64,000 bases of DNA from Atopobiaceae bacterium (GTDB lineage: Bacteria > Actinomycetota > Coriobacteriia > Coriobacteriales > Atopobiaceae). Positions 11,507 through 37,275 of the stretch are shown here, piece after piece; the first letter of the stretch is position 1; the number at the start of each line of letters is the position of its first letter. The translations under genes were made by a program, and so were the position numbers. The notes below the pieces were generated by a model. The model worked only from the letters and a program-made list of their open reading frames with translations, was not told the DNA's origin and ran no database searches. The stretch covers positions 1 through 64,000 of the forward strand of contig JAFWMH010000001.1 in the NCBI GenBank assembly GCA_017510785.1, written 5' to 3'.

Positions 11507-11595
11507 CATCTAGATAAGCCAAGCCAGAATAGTCTCCTTAGTGAAATTCACTGATGTCCGAAAGGGTTCTCGACCACAAGGAGTCTCTCATGCTC

Positions 11596-11633
11596 TTGAG
11601 TTGTGGCACGATTGTATTAGAATTTGCTACAAT
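11596..11633 (+). promoter_or_regulatory. Promoter and operator of abiE operon
   Basis: TTGAGT (11596-11601) and TAGAAT (11618-11623) are spaced 16 bases apart. The inverted pair ATTGTA (11611-11616) / TACAAT (11628-11633) flanks the -10 box. AbiEi antitoxins are known to autoregulate through inverted repeats at their promoter, so this is the likely site. Confidence 0.5.
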
Positions 11634-11639
11634 CATGCC

Positions 11640-12278
11640 ATGAAGAGAAGAGACAACAGAGCAATAATCAACGAGCTTTCGGCATCCGAACGCGTGTTCA
11701 CCACCTCCCAGGCCAAGCGCCTTGGCGTTACGCGAGACGCCTTGGCAAAGGCATGTGCCGCCGGGAATCTGGTCCGCGTCGTGCACGGGGCATATCGCAT
11801 GGCGGGCGTGCCTCCGACGGAGATCGACGAGCTTGTCGCGATCTGGAAGCTCACCAAGCCTGCCCTCTTTTTCCACGAACGGGCGAGTCGAGAGCTTTGG
11901 GACGGCATCGTAGTCTCTGGCCATACGGCCGCATCGATGCTTGGCATCGGCGATTTTTACTTGTCGCCCTACCGTCTGACAGCTCCATACCGCATGAGGT
12001 CCAACGCGTCGAGCGCCACGTTTGTCACTAGACGCGTCGAACGGAAGGACGTGTCCTTCTCGGAGGGGCTTCCCGTGACAATGCCGGAACGCACGCTCGT
12101 CGACCTGGTCCTAGATGACGAGGATCCCTCACTTGTCAACGACGCGCTTATCGATGCGAGAGAGAAAGGTGTCGACGAGGCCCGCCTCGAAGAACTCGTG
12201 CGAAGCGAGTGCAAGCGCACAAAGGTTGGAATGGCGATGAGCCTACTGTTTGGGAAGGGGCTAAACGATGAAGTATAG
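11640..12278 (+). CDS. abiEi: AbiEi-type antitoxin / transcriptional regulator (type IV TA)
   Basis: The 212-residue protein begins with an AbiEi winged-helix domain: SERVFTTSQAKRLGVTRD, ALAKACAAGNLVRVVHGAY. The C-terminal AbiEi_4-like part includes LPVTMPERTLVDLVLDD. It neutralises AbiEii without direct binding and represses its own operon. I chose the ATG at 11640, just downstream of a good promoter with an inverted repeat. It overlaps the abiEii start by 11 bases. It lies between helicase tails B and C. Confidence 0.85.
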   Translation: MKRRDNRAIINELSASERVFTTSQAKRLGVTRDALAKACAAGNLVRVVHGAYRMAGVPPTEIDELVAIWKLTKPALFFHERASRELWDGIVVSGHTAASMLGIGDFYLSPYRLTAPYRMRSNASSATFVTRRVERKDVSFSEGLPVTMPERTLVDLVLDDEDPSLVNDALIDAREKGVDEARLEELVRSECKRTKVGMAMSLLFGKGLNDEV

Positions 12279-13191
12279 GACGCCAGAGGCCTTGGGGATG
12301 GCCGTCACGACTGCGGCGCGCAAGTCAGGAATGGACGTGGGGCATGCCATCTCAGGCTTCTACTTCCACCGGCTACTCTGCCGCATCTTCAGCGTGTCCG
12401 ATTCGCCGTTCCTCCTTAAGGGCGGTCAGTCGATGCTTGCGCGGACTCCTTCCGCCCGTGCAACGCGCGACATCGACCTACTCTCGCAGGAGGAGAATCT
12501 CGACAAGGCGCTTTCGGAACTTCGGAGACTGGCCTCGCTCGACTTAGGTGACTTCGTTAGATTCGAGTTTGCGGGCTCAAAGCCCATCAAGGCAGAGGAC
12601 GAGTACCGCTCAGGTCTCAAAGTGACGTTCGTCCCCCTGCTTGGCGCGCGAAAACTCCAGCCCATTTCGGTCGACTTGGTAATCGATCAAATCCCTTGTG
12701 GGGAACCACAAGTGTTAACGCCTGCGGACAGGATTGAGGTCGAGGAAGTCCCCGTCTTCAACTACAAGGTCTACCCAATAGCAAACTCCATCGCCGACAA
12801 ACTCTGCGGAATCATTGAAATGCATAACGGCAGGCCATCATCGCGCGTAAAGGATCTCGTCGACCTCCTCGTTTATGCGACAAACGAGAATCTCAACGGG
12901 AACGAGCTGTGCCATTGGTGCAGGCTCGAGGCACGCGTGAGGGGACTCGAACTGCCGTCCCAATTCTCCGTGCCGGAGTCATGGAGAACGCATTACTCGA
13001 TGAGCTTCAAGAAGCTCGCAAGAAGCACGGAGCTTGATGAGACTCTTCTAGACCTGGACGCAGCGGAGAGTCTTGTCGCAAGGGTGCTCGATCCCGTACT
13101 GAGCGGTAACGCGCACGATCACATGTGGAATTGCCACCTACAAGAGTGGGTGCAGGTTCACCGTGGAGACAGCGGCCCTACCGCCAAATAG
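12268..13191 (+). CDS. abiEii: AbiEii/AbiGii-type nucleotidyltransferase toxin
   Basis: The 307-residue protein has the nucleotidyltransferase core LKGGQSMLARTPSARATRD followed by IDLLS, which contains the paired aspartates of motif I. Further in, VYPIANSIADKLCGIIE and RVKDLVDLLVYA match the conserved middle of the family. AbiEii toxins transfer nucleotides to targets such as tRNA acceptor stems and cause bacteriostasis or phage abortive infection. Coupling to abiEi (11-base overlap) supports the assignment. The last dozen residues (WVQVHRGDSGPTAK) run up to helicase tail C and may have been changed by the junction. Confidence 0.85.
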   Translation: MKYRTPEALGMAVTTAARKSGMDVGHAISGFYFHRLLCRIFSVSDSPFLLKGGQSMLARTPSARATRDIDLLSQEENLDKALSELRRLASLDLGDFVRFEFAGSKPIKAEDEYRSGLKVTFVPLLGARKLQPISVDLVIDQIPCGEPQVLTPADRIEVEEVPVFNYKVYPIANSIADKLCGIIEMHNGRPSSRVKDLVDLLVYATNENLNGNELCHWCRLEARVRGLELPSQFSVPESWRTHYSMSFKKLARSTELDETLLDLDAAESLVARVLDPVLSGNAHDHMWNCHLQEWVQVHRGDSGPTAK

Positions 13192-18746: not shown

Positions 18747-19502
18747 TCAGTCAGGATTATTGTTCGACTGGGTATAAGAGTAATCTTCTCGAATGCTTTC
18801 GATGATGCGCCCGATGTTACACGTCAGCTCACCCAACGCGCCATCGAGACTCTGGTTGAGATGCCTCTCCGCCCTGATCGCTGTGTCCACCTCCTTGGCG
18901 AGCATCCCCACGCCCGGATTCCGCTTCGGATTCATCTTGTAGACACTGGTGAAGAGCCTCTGCACGAACCGCTGTTTTCCGCACTTCCTATTCTCCAGAA
19001 TCTCTTTTGCGTTCGGTCGAACAAACTCGTCGTATGCCCCGTCTGCATGCAGGAGCAGGAACAGCTCGAAACTCGGATTGGTCACGGCAAGTATGTCGTT
19101 GGCGTCGGCGGACTCCTTGACCTTATCGAACTCTGTCGCTTTGCCCTCGCCTCCCCCACGCCCCTCGCCGACCCTACTGTAAACATCAAGGTCGAACACG
19201 ATTATCATTCGATCGTACCTCGAGTCGAACAGCCATCTATTGCTCTCCTTTTCCCTCTGGGCAAACTTCACCAGAGCTTGTGGATTCGAGAGGCCTTCGT
19301 CAGCCTCAGTCTTCTCCCAAAGGCACAAGTCAACCAAGGGGTGAATGCCGAGCTCGTTGCGGCGATCAACCAGCGCCCTGAAGTAGTGGACCTCAGTCTT
19401 GCTCCCCTCGCAAATGAAAACGTACTTCCTACGAGGTTCCTCTTGATCCAGCGTGTCCGTCTCGCGCTTGTTCCAACTACCGTACTCGCGTATGGGAGGC
19501 AT
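18747..19502 (-). CDS. rloB: RloB-like protein (TOPRIM-type nuclease partner)
   Basis: The 251-residue protein shows RloB features: RRKYVFICEGSKTEVHYF with the catalytic-type Glu, MIIVFDLDV with paired acidic residues, and LAVTNPSFELFLLLH. RloB is predicted to have a TOPRIM-like nuclease fold. RloA/RloB pairs resemble AbiLi/AbiLii abortive-infection genes and occur in defence islands. The start lies 3 bases after the rloA stop, with GGAGAGGAG as ribosome site inside the rloA end. A GGGEGK-type glycine-rich insertion interrupts the middle. Confidence 0.85.
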   Translation of the reverse strand: MPPIREYGSWNKRETDTLDQEEPRRKYVFICEGSKTEVHYFRALVDRRNELGIHPLVDLCLWEKTEADEGLSNPQALVKFAQREKESNRWLFDSRYDRMIIVFDLDVYSRVGEGRGGGEGKATEFDKVKESADANDILAVTNPSFELFLLLHADGAYDEFVRPNAKEILENRKCGKQRFVQRLFTSVYKMNPKRNPGVGMLAKEVDTAIRAERHLNQSLDGALGELTCNIGRIIESIREDYSYTQSNNNPD

Positions 19503-19505
19503 TCC

Positions 19506-20849
19506 CTACTCCTCTCCGTAGTGGACGAAGGCCGGTACGGCACCGTAGCGCCCCTCGAGGTACGCTTTGGTTATGTCCTTGTCAAAGCGGTCCTTGAAAC
19601 GGTCAAGCGAGTAGAGCTTGCTATTCCCGTTGGCCCCGCGGTCGACAAACCAGATCTCGTCGCGTCTGAAGAGCTCTTGGTCCATGATTGACGCCTCGTG
19701 CGAGCTGAAGATAATCTGACACGACCCCTCGGAATTCGACTCCATGAACAACTCCAAGAAGTGCCTGACCAACATGGGGTGAAGGCTCCTCTCGAGCTCA
19801 TCCACCACATACACCGTGTCTTCGGCCGCGTCGAGCAGCATGCCCATGAGGTCGAAGAGGCGACGGGTACCATCCGACTCCTCGCGAAAGTCGAAGAGCG
19901 ACGAAACGCCTCCGTGGCGCAAGCGTAGCACCGACACGTTCGAGATGCCATCCGCGCTAATGTCGAAGAAGAAGAAGCCGTCTCGTGTCTGGAGACACCC
20001 ACGAATCATGCCCCCTCCCAGACCCCTAAGCTTCGAGTTCGCATCCAAGAGAATCTGCTCCATTGACTGCTCACCCGCAGCGTCAGCCAACGCCTCCGGT
20101 GTTATGGCCTCCGGACAGACCCCAGAGACGCCCGTGTCGAAGGAAGCGAGTAGCCTACCGGCACGATCCATTCCCCTCCAGCTCAGGAGGTACTTGGCAT
20201 CGCGCATCGGCCCCATGGGCGTGATGACAACGATGTTTTCCGTCAGCCACCGATATGCGTCAACGAACACTTGGAACGCAGAATCGCTCGCATAGCGCTT
20301 CGAGCGGTTGAGCTCACTAAGGAAAAGGGTGCCAGTCCCAACGTCGAAGTCATCAGCGTACGTCCGGAACCTGCCCTCGTCACGGTCCGAGAACTCCACG
20401 TTCGAAGTGATGGGGTCATCCGATAAAGCGTCAACGACGAGCAGGGGCGTGGAGCGATCTCCGTGCAACTCATACAGCCACTCTTCCATTATCTTCATCT
20501 CGGAGAGAATGGCAGAGAATCCATATGCGAACACGTGCCCGCCAACCGTGAACTGAAGCTCGAAGACACTCTTGCGCGTCCGGTTTGCGTCGTCGTTTCG
20601 GCAGTAGCGGCCGCTAAAAGAAATCTCGAGCCCTTCCCTCAGCACCCGCTGCACGAAAGAGAAGAGGTCGATAAGGTTCGACTTGCCGGCTGCGTTCGCG
20701 CCATACACGGCTGCGTACTTGAGCACCTTGGCCCCGTTCAGCCTCCTTACGTGCTCTTCCTTGCGCCTGATCTTCGAAGACGAGATCATCACCAGCTCCG
20801 TGGGTTCCTTGAAGGACTTGTAGTTCTCCACCGTAGCACGAATGAGCAT
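19506..20849 (-). CDS. rloA: RloA-like AAA ATPase (ATP-binding defence protein)
   Basis: The 447-residue protein begins MLIRATVENYKSFKEPTEL, continues with the Walker A GANAAGKSN, and has the late ABC/OLD-type elements VYVVDELERSLHP (Walker B plus signature region) and IIFSSHEASIMD (H-loop). This is the AAA_15/AAA_21 class used as the sensor/motor of many two-gene defence systems. The start has a strong AGGAGGTG. It is followed by rloB in the same operon. A 145-base near-identical duplicate of its 3' end lies at 17436. Confidence 0.87.
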   Translation of the reverse strand: MLIRATVENYKSFKEPTELVMISSSKIRRKEEHVRRLNGAKVLKYAAVYGANAAGKSNLIDLFSFVQRVLREGLEISFSGRYCRNDDANRTRKSVFELQFTVGGHVFAYGFSAILSEMKIMEEWLYELHGDRSTPLLVVDALSDDPITSNVEFSDRDEGRFRTYADDFDVGTGTLFLSELNRSKRYASDSAFQVFVDAYRWLTENIVVITPMGPMRDAKYLLSWRGMDRAGRLLASFDTGVSGVCPEAITPEALADAAGEQSMEQILLDANSKLRGLGGGMIRGCLQTRDGFFFFDISADGISNVSVLRLRHGGVSSLFDFREESDGTRRLFDLMGMLLDAAEDTVYVVDELERSLHPMLVRHFLELFMESNSEGSCQIIFSSHEASIMDQELFRRDEIWFVDRGANGNSKLYSLDRFKDRFDKDITKAYLEGRYGAVPAFVHYGEE

Positions 20850-26034: not shown

Positions 26035-26721
26035 CTATAGAGGCGCCACGAACAGGTCGTCGAGGTCGACCACGCTCGCCACGCTTTGTGAGTGCTTGTT
26101 GCGTCTCAGGCCGTTAACGGTCACGACCGTCTCAAGCAGCGCATGAGGTGTGCGGCTCTCTTCCCGAAACACCTCGACCTTCCTACGCAGTTCACGTTCG
26201 TCCGCCTCCCTCATAGCGTATACATCATCCGTGAACTTCATCTCACATATGTTGGTGACGTTGTCGGCACGCTCTATGACCATGCCTATCTGGACGCCGG
26301 GCGACGTGCTCCAGCTCGTCCAAGGGAAGCTAATCGCCTCGACCCCAAGCACGCCAAGCGCATGCCGAATCTGCGCCGTATGCAGCGTGCACGCCAACTC
26401 GAAGGCGTTGCCTCTCCAAGCATAGTATGCCTGGGTTCCGCTATAGCTTGTCCAATTGGCAACGGCTTGCGGCCCATCCATGAACCTGAACGCGAAGAGC
26501 AGGAATGGGTCAACCAGTTGGTACATTTTCGGCTTGTAGGCAGCATACTTGTTGACATACGAGCGAACGTACCCGCACTGCTCCAGGTCGTCCATAACCC
26601 GCTTGAATCCGCCACCATCGGCAGCCCCGACCGCTTATATGCATATGAGCTCGGCCTTGCTCGACCTGCAGTACTCCTCCAAGTCTTCTTGGTCGCGCTT
26701 TCTTCCAATGAGGATACCCAT
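26035..26721 (-). pseudogene. DUF234-type AAA ATPase with internal deletion
   Basis: From ATG 26721 the first 28 codons read MGILIGRKRDQEDLEEYCR then SSKAELICI, the standard N-terminus before the GRRRxGKT P-loop of archaeal-type ATPases. A stop follows immediately. The same frame then continues with GGFKRVMDDLEQCGYVRSY, YQLVDPFLLFAFRF and the C-terminal DUF234/nuclease-like part ending LFVAPL. The P-loop and AAA core are missing. The downstream open frame could be translated from ATG 26595 but would lack all ATPase motifs. Confidence 0.7.
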
Positions 26722-27333: not shown

Positions 27334-28236
27334 ATGAAACGCGCCATGCAAATCCTATGCCTTACATGCCTTTGTCTTGTTGTGGGCGTACTCGCCTCAT
27401 GTGCCTCGCGCGCCACCGAACGCGACGAGCCGCCCATCTTCGAACGGGGAACCTGGGCGCTTTCCTCGTTCAAGGGCAAACAAGCACCGTACCACTACGC
27501 CATATCAAACTACAAATTCGACTACAACGAGCAAGGTCAAATCGTGCAGTCGCGCAAGAGCATCAATGCGGCGAACATCGTTAGCGGAGAAAACCTTACC
27601 TGCACATGGGCCGACGATGGTTTTTCGTACGATTGCTCCTATACACTTACTGGAGGAAACTTCGGCGAACTCGGTAGCTCCGGAACGGCTAAGGCCAGCT
27701 TCCAGGTGGAGTACAATGAGCTTTCGGCTACCTACACCGCACATGGAGAGAGCATCCCCCCTGCTTGGAAACAAGACGTCAGCACAGTCCACTATACACT
27801 GGAGTACCGAACTGACGGCACACTCAAGCACAAAGAAGTCGTAGGCAATGATTTCGCAGACGCGTTGGAGGTCTACGACTATGACGAATATGGCAACTTG
27901 GTGCACTACGAGCGTACCGCAAGCGGAGAGGATACGCCCAGCGAGATTCGAACGTACGATATTGTCTACGAGGATGGCGTACCCAAAAGCGTCTCGGTAA
28001 CAAAGACCTTCCCGCCCGACAGCAGCGAGGCGTCGTCTGACGCCGAAGGGAGCCAGGCAGAACGCTCCCACACGTACGAACTCGTGCTACATACCGACGA
28101 AGGGGGTAACGTCGTGTCGGCCGATTGCGACGGAAGGAAGATGGCCACCATGTCGTGGACCTACATCGAGAGGCCCGATTCCTTGTCGCGCCTGCGCATT
28201 CAGTCCGAGGCGGCGAGCGCGTTCGAGCTGCTGTAG
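27334..28236 (+). CDS. Putative lipoprotein of unknown function
   Basis: The 300-residue protein begins with a basic N-region and a hydrophobic stretch ending in the lipobox LASC (around residues 20-23), so it should be lipid-anchored on the outer face of the membrane. The mature part is rich in short Tyr-containing beta motifs (YKFDYNEQGQIV, VYDYDEYGNLVHYERT) like the YD-type strands of extracytoplasmic beta proteins. I do not recognise a family. ATG 27334 follows GGAAGG. It is monocistronic by position. Confidence 0.75.
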   Translation: MKRAMQILCLTCLCLVVGVLASCASRATERDEPPIFERGTWALSSFKGKQAPYHYAISNYKFDYNEQGQIVQSRKSINAANIVSGENLTCTWADDGFSYDCSYTLTGGNFGELGSSGTAKASFQVEYNELSATYTAHGESIPPAWKQDVSTVHYTLEYRTDGTLKHKEVVGNDFADALEVYDYDEYGNLVHYERTASGEDTPSEIRTYDIVYEDGVPKSVSVTKTFPPDSSEASSDAEGSQAERSHTYELVLHTDEGGNVVSADCDGRKMATMSWTYIERPDSLSRLRIQSEAASAFELL

Positions 28237-28440
28237 GCGCGCATCCGGCTGAGGGACACAACTCGTAGGTACGCACGTGACGCCCCCACCCGGGCTTGAG
28301 CGCCAAAAGGTAATAGTCATCGTACTAGCGCACTAAATCGAGGGGCTTTCTGCTCAGCGCATGCTCTCAGGACAGCCTCCGTGTTTGCTATTATTTCCTT
28401 TGAGCTGTAATCCAACTGTTCTGGCTTGGAAGGCGGGCGC

Positions 28441-31029
28441 ATGGAGGCATTCGGAACGTTCTACCTCGACAAAGAGAAGGACCTCGTCGTCGACCTCTTC
28501 CGCAAGGGGGACGAGCTGCGCTATGTGCTCAGGACGCCGAACCACGGGACGGGCAACCTCATCGCCAACCTCGCCTCTCTGTGCGACCTCGAGCTCCAAA
28601 CCGACGAAGACGGTCTCAGGGTGATTCGGGGCACGCTGCCCTGCTACATCGACGGAGATAACCGCATGCTCTACGTCCTCCGTCTGCTCGACACAAAGGT
28701 CGCCAACATCTACCCGGACGGGCGCATCGAGCGCAAGGCGTCCATACCCGCTATCGCCAAAACTCTGATGAGCCAAACCAAGGACTATCGTCAGGACTTT
28801 CGCAAAACCGTCGTGAAGACCTACATCCTGCGCGAGTGCAAATTCCGGACGGACCTGCACACCCACATGAACGCCAACCTCGACCCCGACGTCCTCATCG
28901 CCCTCGGCATCCACCACCAAATCCGCTATCCGCTTTACTACATCAGGAAGCTGGGGCTTAGGGTGTCGCCCGAGCAGGAGCGACTCCTCGCCGAGCGGCG
29001 GGCCCAAGAGGTACTGCGGCTTCGCAACTCCCCGCTCAAAGGCAAGTTCCTCGACCGCAGGATCGACGACGGGACGTTTTTGAACTTCGCTTCTCTTATA
29101 CTCGAGAACCTCGACAACGCCGCATGGAACATCCCCAAGATACGGGCGTCGCTGGCGATAATGAAGGACGGACAGGCTGTTTTTACAAACCTGGAGAAGG
29201 TCTACCTGTACCGCTACGTCTTTTGCAAAGGCGTCCCCGCCGACGATCCGATTCGGCTCCACAACACGGGTTTTATCCCCGACCGCGAGATTGTGCGAGC
29301 CCTCGTCGCGATGGAGCGCGACCGCAGCAACCCGGCATTCCGCACGAACACTCTCTTCCAAAACAAGCTGCTGTGGATTGCGCGGAGCTACGCTAGATGC
29401 GGCGTCGACTACGCCGAGATATCCGATACGACCCTGGCGAAGCCCGAGGACGCGCCGCGCATGCTGGCTGAGGTCCATACCGTGATGCCGGCAATCACAC
29501 GGGAAACCGGGGTCACGCTGCGCTTTTTGGCCGCAGTCCGGCGGACGCCACTCACGATTGTTAAAGACAAAATCGCCTCGGACGACTATCTGCGCAAGAA
29601 CCTGCAGGCCATACGGGCGGTAGCGGGCGACCCATACGTGGCGGGCAGCGACATCGTCGGCGAGGAGATAAACGACATACGGGACCTTGCGCCACTGCTG
29701 GCGGCGCTCGACCGAATCGCGGCGGACCATCCCACCTTCACGATTCGTATCCATGCCGGAGAGAACGACGGCCTGCGGGACAACGTGGCCAACGCGATCA
29801 GGTGCGTCCGAGAGGGACTCGCCCCCGGTCAGCCCATGCCTCGCATCCGGATCGGCCATGGGCTCTACACCCGAAACCTCGCCTCGGCCAAGGGACGACA
29901 GCTGCTGGAGGATCTGAGGAACAGCGGCGCCGTGCTGGAGTTCCAAATCACCTCGAACGTCCGGCTAAACAACCTGAGTCAGCTGGAACGCCATCCTTTA
30001 CGACAATACCTTGCGGCAGGCGTGCCCTGCGTGCAGGGGACGGACGGCGGGGCCGTGTACGGGACGGACTCGATTGACGAGCAGCTCGCGCTCGAAAAGA
30101 CGCTCAACCTCTCGCACGCCGAGCTCGTCGCCATGCATCGCGCGGAGGACGCGGTACGGCGATGCGGCCTCGCCGCCCTCACGGAGAAGATGCGTGCCTT
30201 CGCCACGGAGTCGGGCACGGCGGGCGCCACGGCGGGCGTCTCCGCCGCGGAGTCGGGCACCGAACCGGCGGTCACGATGGGTGCGCCCGACACGGATGGC
30301 GCGACTACTGCCGCGGCCGACGTCGCCAAGCACGTCGAGGCCTTCTACGCCGCAAAAATGCGAGCGCAGCAGCCGCCCGAGGAAACCCTGATGGACCTCC
30401 CGAACACCGAGGCCAGCGCCACGATATTATCTGATAAAATCGAGGAACTGCCGTACGACCGGGTGCCGGTAATCCTCGTGGGTGGGTCCTTCAACAACGA
30501 CCGCCACATGACCAGACGCAACCGTGACGTATGCGCCCTGCTCGACGATGTACTCGCCAAAGGGGACCCCAGCAAGATGTTCCTCGTCATCGGCCACAGC
30601 CTCTCGGGCTACGAGCGCTATGTGGCCACGCAGAATCGGGGAAAGTTCGACCTCTTTGCCTTCGTGCCTGCCCGAATCGCGCCGGAAGAGGCGGAGACCC
30701 TTACGCGAGCCGGGGTCCGCATACGGCCCTCCATCGAACCCAGCCCCATGGGCATTTACAAGAGCGTTGCCTTCGAGGTGTTCAAACGCAGGCCGTCGGT
30801 TCTCATCGCGCTCGACGGCAACTCCTCCGGCGCGAACATGATTCAGGATGCCAAGAACGGCAAACGAAAGTGTCACATATTCGTCCTCAACAAGAGGGGC
30901 ATGCTGCGAGAGAAGGCCAAGAGCCTCGAGGGGTACGCGACCCTTTTCGGAGTCGGCGACGACCTGGCAGCTTTTGTCTGCGATGCAGTAGAAACGTGCT
31001 ACCCGGAGCACTGGCTGCGAAAAGAGTGA
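28441..31029 (+). CDS. Adenosine deaminase-like protein fused to a C-terminal SLOG-like Rossmann domain
   Basis: This is an 862-residue protein. An N-terminal region of about 135 residues with no known match leads to a deaminase TIM barrel: DLHTHMNANL (metal ligands, residues 140-142), IRIHAGEN near 438 (HAGE with catalytic Glu), RIGHG, and CVQGTDGGAVYGTD near 533 (TDG metal site). All catalytic landmarks are present. An Ala/Thr-rich linker (about 590-640) connects to a C-terminal domain starting PVILVGGSFNNDR near 674, with FLVIGHSLSGYERYV and SVLIALDGNSSGANM. This resembles SLOG/LOG-type nucleotide-binding Rossmann folds. ATG 28441 has GGAAGG upstream; a TTG 15 bases earlier is less likely. 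It stands alone, without an adjacent RdrA-like ATPase. A nucleotide-signalling or antiviral role is inferred. Confidence 0.75.
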   Translation: MEAFGTFYLDKEKDLVVDLFRKGDELRYVLRTPNHGTGNLIANLASLCDLELQTDEDGLRVIRGTLPCYIDGDNRMLYVLRLLDTKVANIYPDGRIERKASIPAIAKTLMSQTKDYRQDFRKTVVKTYILRECKFRTDLHTHMNANLDPDVLIALGIHHQIRYPLYYIRKLGLRVSPEQERLLAERRAQEVLRLRNSPLKGKFLDRRIDDGTFLNFASLILENLDNAAWNIPKIRASLAIMKDGQAVFTNLEKVYLYRYVFCKGVPADDPIRLHNTGFIPDREIVRALVAMERDRSNPAFRTNTLFQNKLLWIARSYARCGVDYAEISDTTLAKPEDAPRMLAEVHTVMPAITRETGVTLRFLAAVRRTPLTIVKDKIASDDYLRKNLQAIRAVAGDPYVAGSDIVGEEINDIRDLAPLLAALDRIAADHPTFTIRIHAGENDGLRDNVANAIRCVREGLAPGQPMPRIRIGHGLYTRNLASAKGRQLLEDLRNSGAVLEFQITSNVRLNNLSQLERHPLRQYLAAGVPCVQGTDGGAVYGTDSIDEQLALEKTLNLSHAELVAMHRAEDAVRRCGLAALTEKMRAFATESGTAGATAGVSAAESGTEPAVTMGAPDTDGATTAAADVAKHVEAFYAAKMRAQQPPEETLMDLPNTEASATILSDKIEELPYDRVPVILVGGSFNNDRHMTRRNRDVCALLDDVLAKGDPSKMFLVIGHSLSGYERYVATQNRGKFDLFAFVPARIAPEEAETLTRAGVRIRPSIEPSPMGIYKSVAFEVFKRRPSVLIALDGNSSGANMIQDAKNGKRKCHIFVLNKRGMLREKAKSLEGYATLFGVGDDLAAFVCDAVETCYPEHWLRKE

Positions 31030-32636: not shown

Positions 32637-32740
32637 CCTGTCGGAAACGCGACCTGTGCAACTGAAAGGTTTGCACAGGTCGATATTCCGACAGATTCCG
32701 CCCCCGCGACTTGCACAGGTCGACATTCCGACAGACAGGC
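32637..32740. repeat. CACAGGTCG palindromic repeat, cluster 1
   Basis: One inverted half unit (CTGTCGGAA ... CGACCTGTGCAA) faces a direct unit (TTGCACAGGTCG ... TTCCGACAG) across an 8-10 base loop, making a long imperfect hairpin. A second direct unit follows about 40 bases on. The same family is present at 37078-37275 and 49542-49571. Confidence 0.8.
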
Positions 32741-33099
32741 TCCCCATCCTGTCGCTCTCCGGCCTGGCCCGTTTGCGCCTCATGCACCCCATCGCGGCCC
32801 CCGTCCTCGTCCCTTCTCGATGCCATCGTTTTCCGGGGCGCGACACCAATCGAGCTGCGACTATGAGGCATCGTGGGGAGCATATTATGCTTTTTATGCT
32901 ATTATCTAGAACCATCGATGATTGTTTCCATTGTATTAACTACCCATTGGTTGATTGTTTAGAGAATTGCATTTGCAAATGCGCAGGTAGATGGCTCATG
33001 CTTTTGAGCATGCATCGTCTACAAACAAGCAATGTGTCGTTTACATGCTGGACACATACCTTAAAACCTTGTTTTATCAGACAAAACCACGCGCTAGGC

Positions 33100-33170
33100 G
33101 TCACGCGCCACGCCCCACGCGCCGGGCGCCATATGCTAGCCGTCACGCGCCACGCCCCACGCGCCGGGCC
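33100..33170. repeat. GCGC-rich tandem repeat
   Basis: GTCACGCGCCACGCCCCACG followed by CGCCGGGC occurs twice with a 42-base period (33100 and 33142), with related CACGCG blocks on either side. It has no coding meaning that I can see. Confidence 0.75.
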
Positions 33171-33324
33171 CCACGCGCTAGGCGCCACGTGCTACGCTTC
33201 AGAGAAAAGCGCCAGGATTGTCTCCTGCCCAACGTTTGAGCGCGCCATTGCGGCATCGATGTGCGCAAACGAAGGGCGTTTTCACGAAGGACGCTTTTCC
33301 GAAAGGACAAGGACCTGTGTAAGG

Positions 33325-37077: not shown

Positions 37078-37275
37078 AGAAAAACCTGTCGGAATCGCGA
37101 CTTGTGCAACTGAAAGCGTTGCACAGGTCGATATTCCAACAGATTCCGTCCCGGGATTGTTGCACAGGTCGATTTTCCAACAGATTCCGTCCCGGGATTG
37201 TTGCACAGGTCGATTTTCCAACAGATTCGGCGCCGGCGATTTGCACAGGTCGATTTTTCGGCAGATTTCGTCCTG
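37078..37275. repeat. CACAGGTCG repeat array, cluster 2 (one inverted + four direct units)
   Basis: An inverted half unit (CTGTCGGAA ... CGACTTGTGCAA) is followed by four direct units of about 41 bases, each beginning TTGCACAGGTCGAT and containing CAACAGATT or a variant. Between units 1-3 the linker TCCGTCCCGGGATTG is repeated. The last unit runs into the truncated dppB coding sequence. Confidence 0.85.

Follow-up and report, generated by a model that had tools for sequence, protein, structure and literature searches.

The window (the whole 64,000-nucleotide stretch of DNA that was analysed) contains a gene whose product joins an adenosine deaminase (ADA) domain to a C-terminal domain with a predicted SLOG-type fold, a kind of domain that frequently serves to sense nucleotides (Table 1). 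Translation of the reading frame gives zero internal stops, and the start codon is the ATG at 28441 rather than the TTG at 28426, the first methionine being kept in at least 97% of homologues. A lipoprotein-like ORF upstream ends at 28236, and the downstream neighbour, a radical SAM gene (32231 to 31353), lies on the opposite strand; the ADA-SLOG gene is therefore probably transcribed alone.

Other features of the window include an AbiEii-like toxin gene of AbiE type (PADLOC E 3e-88), for which the ORF just upstream may be a candidate partner, an AbiLi/AbiLii-like pair (PADLOC E 7e-79 and 3e-16), and a candidate defence protein, PDC-S27, represented by a C-terminal fragment (profile positions 288-473 of 474, E 7e-51) that looks truncated, the remainder being missing in the same frame. 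A dispersed repeat contains TTGCACAGGTCGA in spaced units; this sequence has 8 matches with at most one mismatch versus 0.07 expected, and two 77-nt copies of the repeat, 91% identical, are 4448 nt apart. Repeated 14-nt units with the pattern CACGCGCCACGCCC form an array in a region that has no convincing gene.

Table 1. Coordinates of the ADA-SLOG gene, its domains and motifs, and other features noted in the window
Feature	Position	Strand	Evidence or remark
ADA-SLOG fusion gene	28441..31029	+	Intact ORF, 862 aa plus stop
N-terminal domain, residues 1-135	28441..28845	+	Mostly beta strands in predicted model; very conserved
ADA (amidohydrolase) barrel, residues 136-585	28846..30195	+	Pfam; VIA-align
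H140-T-H142-M-N144, metal-binding HxH motif; N144 at position of mouse Asp19	28858..28872	+	6n9m alignment; invariant or 92/93
H438-A-G-E441, third metal histidine and catalytic glutamate	29752..29763	+	93/93
H473, catalytic histidine of GHG motif	29857..29859	+	93/93; 6n9m alignment
T534-D535-G536, metal aspartate, then Gly at position of ADA Asp296	30040..30048	+	D535 92/93, G536 93/93
Low-complexity linker insertion, about residues 593-628	30217..30324	+	Homologue alignment; pLDDT <50 at 597-618
C-terminal SLOG-like Rossmannoid domain (predicted), about residues 665-862	30433..31026	+	Separate fold; Foldseek, VIA-align; conservation
AbiEii-like toxin gene	12268..13191		PADLOC
ORF upstream of AbiEii-like gene	11541..12278		Candidate partner
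AbiLi/AbiLii-like pair	18747..20849	-	PADLOC
PDC-S27 fragment	26038..26595		Profile match
Dispersed repeat	32649..32723; 37119..37253; 49544		Spaced units
Array of 14-nt units	33088..33213

Domain organization

The only Pfam domain found in the fusion protein is A_deaminase (residues 314-566; E 1.9e-15; 57.3 bits against a curated cut-off of 27). An AlphaFold2 model of the whole protein, built from a 62-row alignment, has a mean pLDDT of 80.7, and its residues 128-582 superpose on ADA structures, best on the Pseudomonas ADA 3ou8 (VIA-align Z 20.3 over 299 residues). The protein belongs to the ADA superfamily (PF00962) and, by fold, to the SLOG superfamily, and it scores below all NCBIfam equivalog cut-offs for canonical adenosine deaminase (EC 3.5.4.4). 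Compared with mouse ADA, the barrel has about 100 additional residues in the stretch that leads from the HxH motif to the third metal histidine. The linker interval is 43 residues long here versus 6-7 in most homologues. Four loops (110-118, 243-249, 505-513 and 536-547) are strictly conserved, yet have pLDDT below 50 in the model, as would be expected if a ligand or an oligomer orders them, although other causes may be at work.

The C-terminal domain matched no Pfam family by sequence, and the Pfam family LSDAT_prok had no match in this genome. Folded separately, the last 208 residues gave a pLDDT of 92.9. The top Foldseek matches of this domain were the MHR1/2 regions of TRPM4 and TRPM3, LOG enzymes and DprA (E 2.1e-6 for TRPM4, 8.6e-5 for LOG and 1.8e-4 for DprA), and VIA-align matched it to SLOG folds with Z scores of 12-14 across 155-189 residues. 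MHR1/2 of Nematostella TRPM2 ranked first (Z 14.2, rmsd 3.5, 189 residues), in effect tied with the Moco carrier protein fold, whose Z of 13.3 is within one unit. A Toprim identity, indicated by weak Pfam matches below any cut-off, is contradicted by the fold. Assignment of the domain to SLOG is thus supported by predicted structure rather than by sequence. The sequence-only reading of this locus had described an 862-residue protein with a Rossmann-like, SLOG-resembling C-terminal domain and an unknown N-terminal region. The uninterrupted ORF bears out the length and the predicted structure agrees with the fold; as for the N-terminal domain, which is 92% identical to that of the nearest relative, neither Pfam nor PDB searches returned a convincing family match.

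Residues of the deaminase and SLOG sites

Active-site residues were assigned by HMMER alignment to the Salmonella ADA 6n9m and to 93 homologues of full or nearly full length. All of the ADA metal ligands and catalytic residues (H15, H17, H214, E217, H238 and D295) are present, as H140, H142, H438, E441, H473 and D535; the first five are kept in 93 of 93 homologues and D535 in 92. The position of mouse Asp19, however, is occupied by Asn in 92 of 93, and that of mouse Asp296 by Gly in every one. Thus the complete ADA active site claimed from the sequence alone holds as far as the metal site and catalysis are concerned, but not for the binding of substrate, and the accompanying claim that the protein deaminates adenosine is doubtful, both nucleoside-binding residues having been replaced. 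The dN/dS ratio against seven relatives is 0.11-0.14 for the whole gene (0.05-0.15 per domain), and the gene is under strong purifying selection; this, with conservation in 92-93 of 93 homologues, argues that the pattern at the active site is not due to chance. Asn at the first position is compatible also with an AMP-type substrate, as in N6-methyl-AMP deaminases. In TaqCad1, which converts ATP to ITP, both positions are altered, to Gly and Asn, the residues there touch ATP, and putting the second Asp back abolishes ATP conversion (PMC12669630). A phosphorylated substrate is therefore likelier than adenosine for the ADA-SLOG protein, an expectation that rests on matching positions rather than identical residues.

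Conservation within the SLOG domain is equally strict: GGSF (681-684), E766, YKS (773-775), E779, G793, N799, Q802 and N806 are kept in 93 of 93 homologues. From the fold and the conservation of this pocket, the domain is predicted to bind a nucleotide. The catalytic motif of LOG enzymes is PGGxGTxxE, which was not found; the corresponding stretch here is DGNSSGANMIQ (792-802), ending in the invariant Q802. A LOG-type reaction is thus disfavoured and a binding role is favoured. Among the structural matches, MHR1/2 of TRPM2 contains an ADP-ribose site (PMC13143021).

The least probable of the explanations considered is a bifunctional enzyme, in which the product of the ADA domain would be an inosine nucleotide and the SLOG domain would remove a base from a nucleotide as LOG phosphoribohydrolases do: Foldseek ranks LOG enzymes among its best matches and the SLOG pocket is conserved as strongly as the deaminase site, but the lack of a clear PGGxGTxxE counterpart makes this quite improbable.

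Distribution and genomic neighbourhood

Scanning GTDB genomes yielded 473 stretches, and tblastn showed 435 of them to encode a relative; the best 80 of these 435 were retained, nearly all of them from rumen and gut anaerobes. The family has a single domain architecture. The gene is present in 14 of 16 genomes of the window's own genus (one per species), in one of them (G005) merely as a 56-residue remnant. The fusion was found in 16 of 250 genomes of Lachnospiraceae, in 23 of 146 of the Erysipelotrichaceae-type family of locus L048, and in 2 of 398 of a wider phylum sample; elsewhere in the window's own phylum, matches were to ordinary ADAs and covered the ADA region only. A SLOG profile searched against the 250 Lachnospiraceae genomes retrieved the same 16 genomes with one match each, so no free-standing SLOG copy was seen among them. 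In a 90-row tree with midpoint rooting only, the window groups with the 20 named Actinomycetota rows in one clade (SH-aLRT 100) nested among Clostridia, which is consistent with a single acquisition followed by vertical descent. No published description of the fusion was found in a literature search that did not extend to the 2015 SLOG survey (doi 10.1093/nar/gkv1267).

No neighbour recurs widely across the 80 homologous loci (best 80 of 435), and no rdrA was recognised among the neighbours. The nearest genes are scattered and largely housekeeping, and the homologues were not found in purine metabolism operons. At a PADLOC threshold of 1e-10, the 137 nearest neighbours gave scattered, mostly generic matches, five of them amylase-type, and among 83 distant genes (more than 5.5 kb away) six families matched; the nearest neighbours are no richer in defence families than the distant genes, and a defence-island context is unsupported. 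TIR-domain genes are directly beside the ADA-SLOG gene at two Lachnospiraceae loci (L050 and L072). Neither these nor a SIR2/Dsr1-like neighbour at L023 is recurrent, and Thoeris-like partners were rejected. Nor were the varied neighbourhoods accepted as a sign of gene mobility: the surroundings of the flanking radical SAM gene also differ between two congeneric genomes, so synteny there is simply poor. No copy was found in collections of phages, plasmids and viral contigs at the sensitivity used, nor in E. coli genomes at the level of near-identical DNA, at which distant copies could still exist. The only match of the fusion protein itself in the defence library was to CARF_ADA, weakly (E 1.9e-5) and through the ADA part. 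On balance, the genomic evidence speaks slightly against its being a typical defence gene. The sequence-only reading had proposed a stand-alone gene lacking an RdrA partner, and in this it was right; the antiviral system that it envisaged fits poorly with neighbours that are not rich in defence genes, with the lack of matches in phage, plasmid and viral-contig sets at the sensitivity used, and with occurrence in 14 of 16 species of the genus.

Proposed function and comparison with known systems

The reading preferred here, to which we give a probability of about one half, is a stand-alone, ligand-controlled deaminase of a phosphorylated adenine compound that would work like Cad1, with the SLOG domain as sensor, and not be a member of Cad1; it is suggested by the kept catalytic residues, the replaced Asp19 and Asp296 equivalents, and the changes at both positions in Cad1. 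The SLOG domain would bind a conserved nucleotide-like ligand, perhaps derived from ADP-ribose or NAD, or an adenine nucleotide. Binding would shift its packing against the ADA barrel and order the active-site loops, and the metal-dependent site would then convert a phosphorylated adenine compound to its inosine form by deamination, ATP/dATP or AMP being the likeliest substrates; both substrate and ligand are proposed from conserved and replaced residues, fold and pocket. Adenine nucleotide would fall and inosine nucleotide rise, either in a stress or abortive response or in control of the purine pool. The latter role is equally possible because the fusion is nearly always the sole ADA-domain protein in its own genus. 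Against the Cad1-like reading, a ligand-making partner gene is not conserved beside the fusion at the 80 loci.

Somewhat less favoured, though the strongest of the rivals, is an enzyme of purine salvage or of the nucleotide pool for which deamination of adenosine or AMP would be part of normal metabolism and the SLOG domain would provide feedback control or no more than structural support. Thirteen genomes of the window's own genus contain most of the gene, and in 12 of them no PF00962 protein other than the fusion exceeds the Pfam cut-off; in the remaining one (G008) the gene is divided between two contigs, and the pieces do not reach the cut-off. The genome with only the remnant has a different ADA-like protein (L123), roughly 535 aa long, in which the motifs LHVHDASG and HCGE occur. 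In Lachnospiraceae, an additional ADA is present in 3 of 16 carriers versus 9 of 20 non-carriers, at most a weak trend (Fisher one-sided p 0.10). Strong purifying selection and a chromosomal location beside housekeeping genes would also suit such an enzyme, but canonical ADA does not share the replacement of both nucleoside-binding residues throughout the family, the gene is outside purine operons and patchy beyond its own genus, and 11 of the 20 Lachnospiraceae non-carriers have no ADA at all, so that ADA is dispensable there.

A single-gene antiviral system, in which the SLOG domain would sense a phage-altered nucleotide and the ADA domain would convert ATP/dATP to ITP/dITP so that the infected cell stops growing, is judged unlikely. 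Cad1 and RdrB use related domains in this way (PMC11645235, PMC9994260), ThsA of Thoeris senses through a SLOG domain, the distribution is patchy over two phyla with an actinobacterial clade inside Clostridia, and AbiE- and AbiL-like genes are 8-16 kb from the ADA-SLOG gene, in this window alone. This stands against the comparison of 137 nearest with 83 distant genes, the empty searches of mobile-element collections, near-universal occurrence within the genus, and a dN/dS that is low in every domain. Similarly doubtful is the boldest reading considered, a one-protein immune or stress effector whose SLOG domain would sense a nucleotide signal, for example an ADP-ribose derivative, and directly switch on conversion of ATP/dATP to inosine nucleotide, with help from an N-terminal domain whose family would be undescribed.

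Among known proteins, canonical adenosine deaminase (PF00962) shares the barrel, metal site and catalytic residues of ADA-SLOG but retains Asp19 and Asp296 and lacks its two further domains. TRPM MHR1/2 regions (LSDAT SLOG domains) are the best structural match of the C-terminal domain, at merely 10-15% identity and tied with other SLOG folds, and LOG/lysine-decarboxylase-like phosphoribohydrolases have the same fold with a catalytic motif that ADA-SLOG does not possess. ThsA of Thoeris (SIR2-SLOG) likewise joins SLOG to a nucleotide-consuming enzyme, although its effector is SIR2 instead of ADA and no TIR partner gene is conserved here. RdrB of RADAR, whose substrate is (d)ATP rather than AMP or adenosine, is also a large ADA protein, extended at its N terminus and carrying an insertion that separates HxH from the third metal histidine (PMC9994260), but its insertion 3 has no apparent counterpart here (62 residues separate H473 from D535), and ADA-SLOG has a SLOG domain and no RdrA partner. 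The RdrB profile gave no PADLOC match at E up to 1, and with no adjacent rdrA either, membership in RADAR was rejected; the RdrB structure 8FNV was not among the matches listed in the structure comparison, which speaks neither for nor against likeness.

Closest in design is Cad1/CAAD, the CARF-fused adenosine deaminase of type III CRISPR systems, in which an ADA barrel (Z 18.4 to 9c6c) is joined to a Rossmannoid sensor-type domain and both nucleoside-binding aspartates are replaced at the same positions. Cad1, however, has an N-terminal CARF domain for cyclic oligoadenylates where ADA-SLOG has a C-terminal SLOG domain and an extra N-terminal domain, and it has Gly and Asn where the ADA-SLOG family has Asn and Gly. 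Membership in the CARF-ADA group, which would call for an N-terminal CARF domain and a type III CRISPR context, was rejected on the N-terminal domain, which has no recognised family by sequence, the lack of a conserved neighbour, and the confinement of the PADLOC match to the ADA part. The family is well defined and common in rumen and gut anaerobes, and the preferred reading predicts a phosphorylated substrate and SLOG-dependent activity. Were it true, the family would show whether loss of both nucleoside-holding aspartates is a general mark of deaminases of nucleotide triphosphates, and would represent a third route to controlled formation of inosine nucleotides after RADAR and Cad1, one that is outside CRISPR and free of partners.
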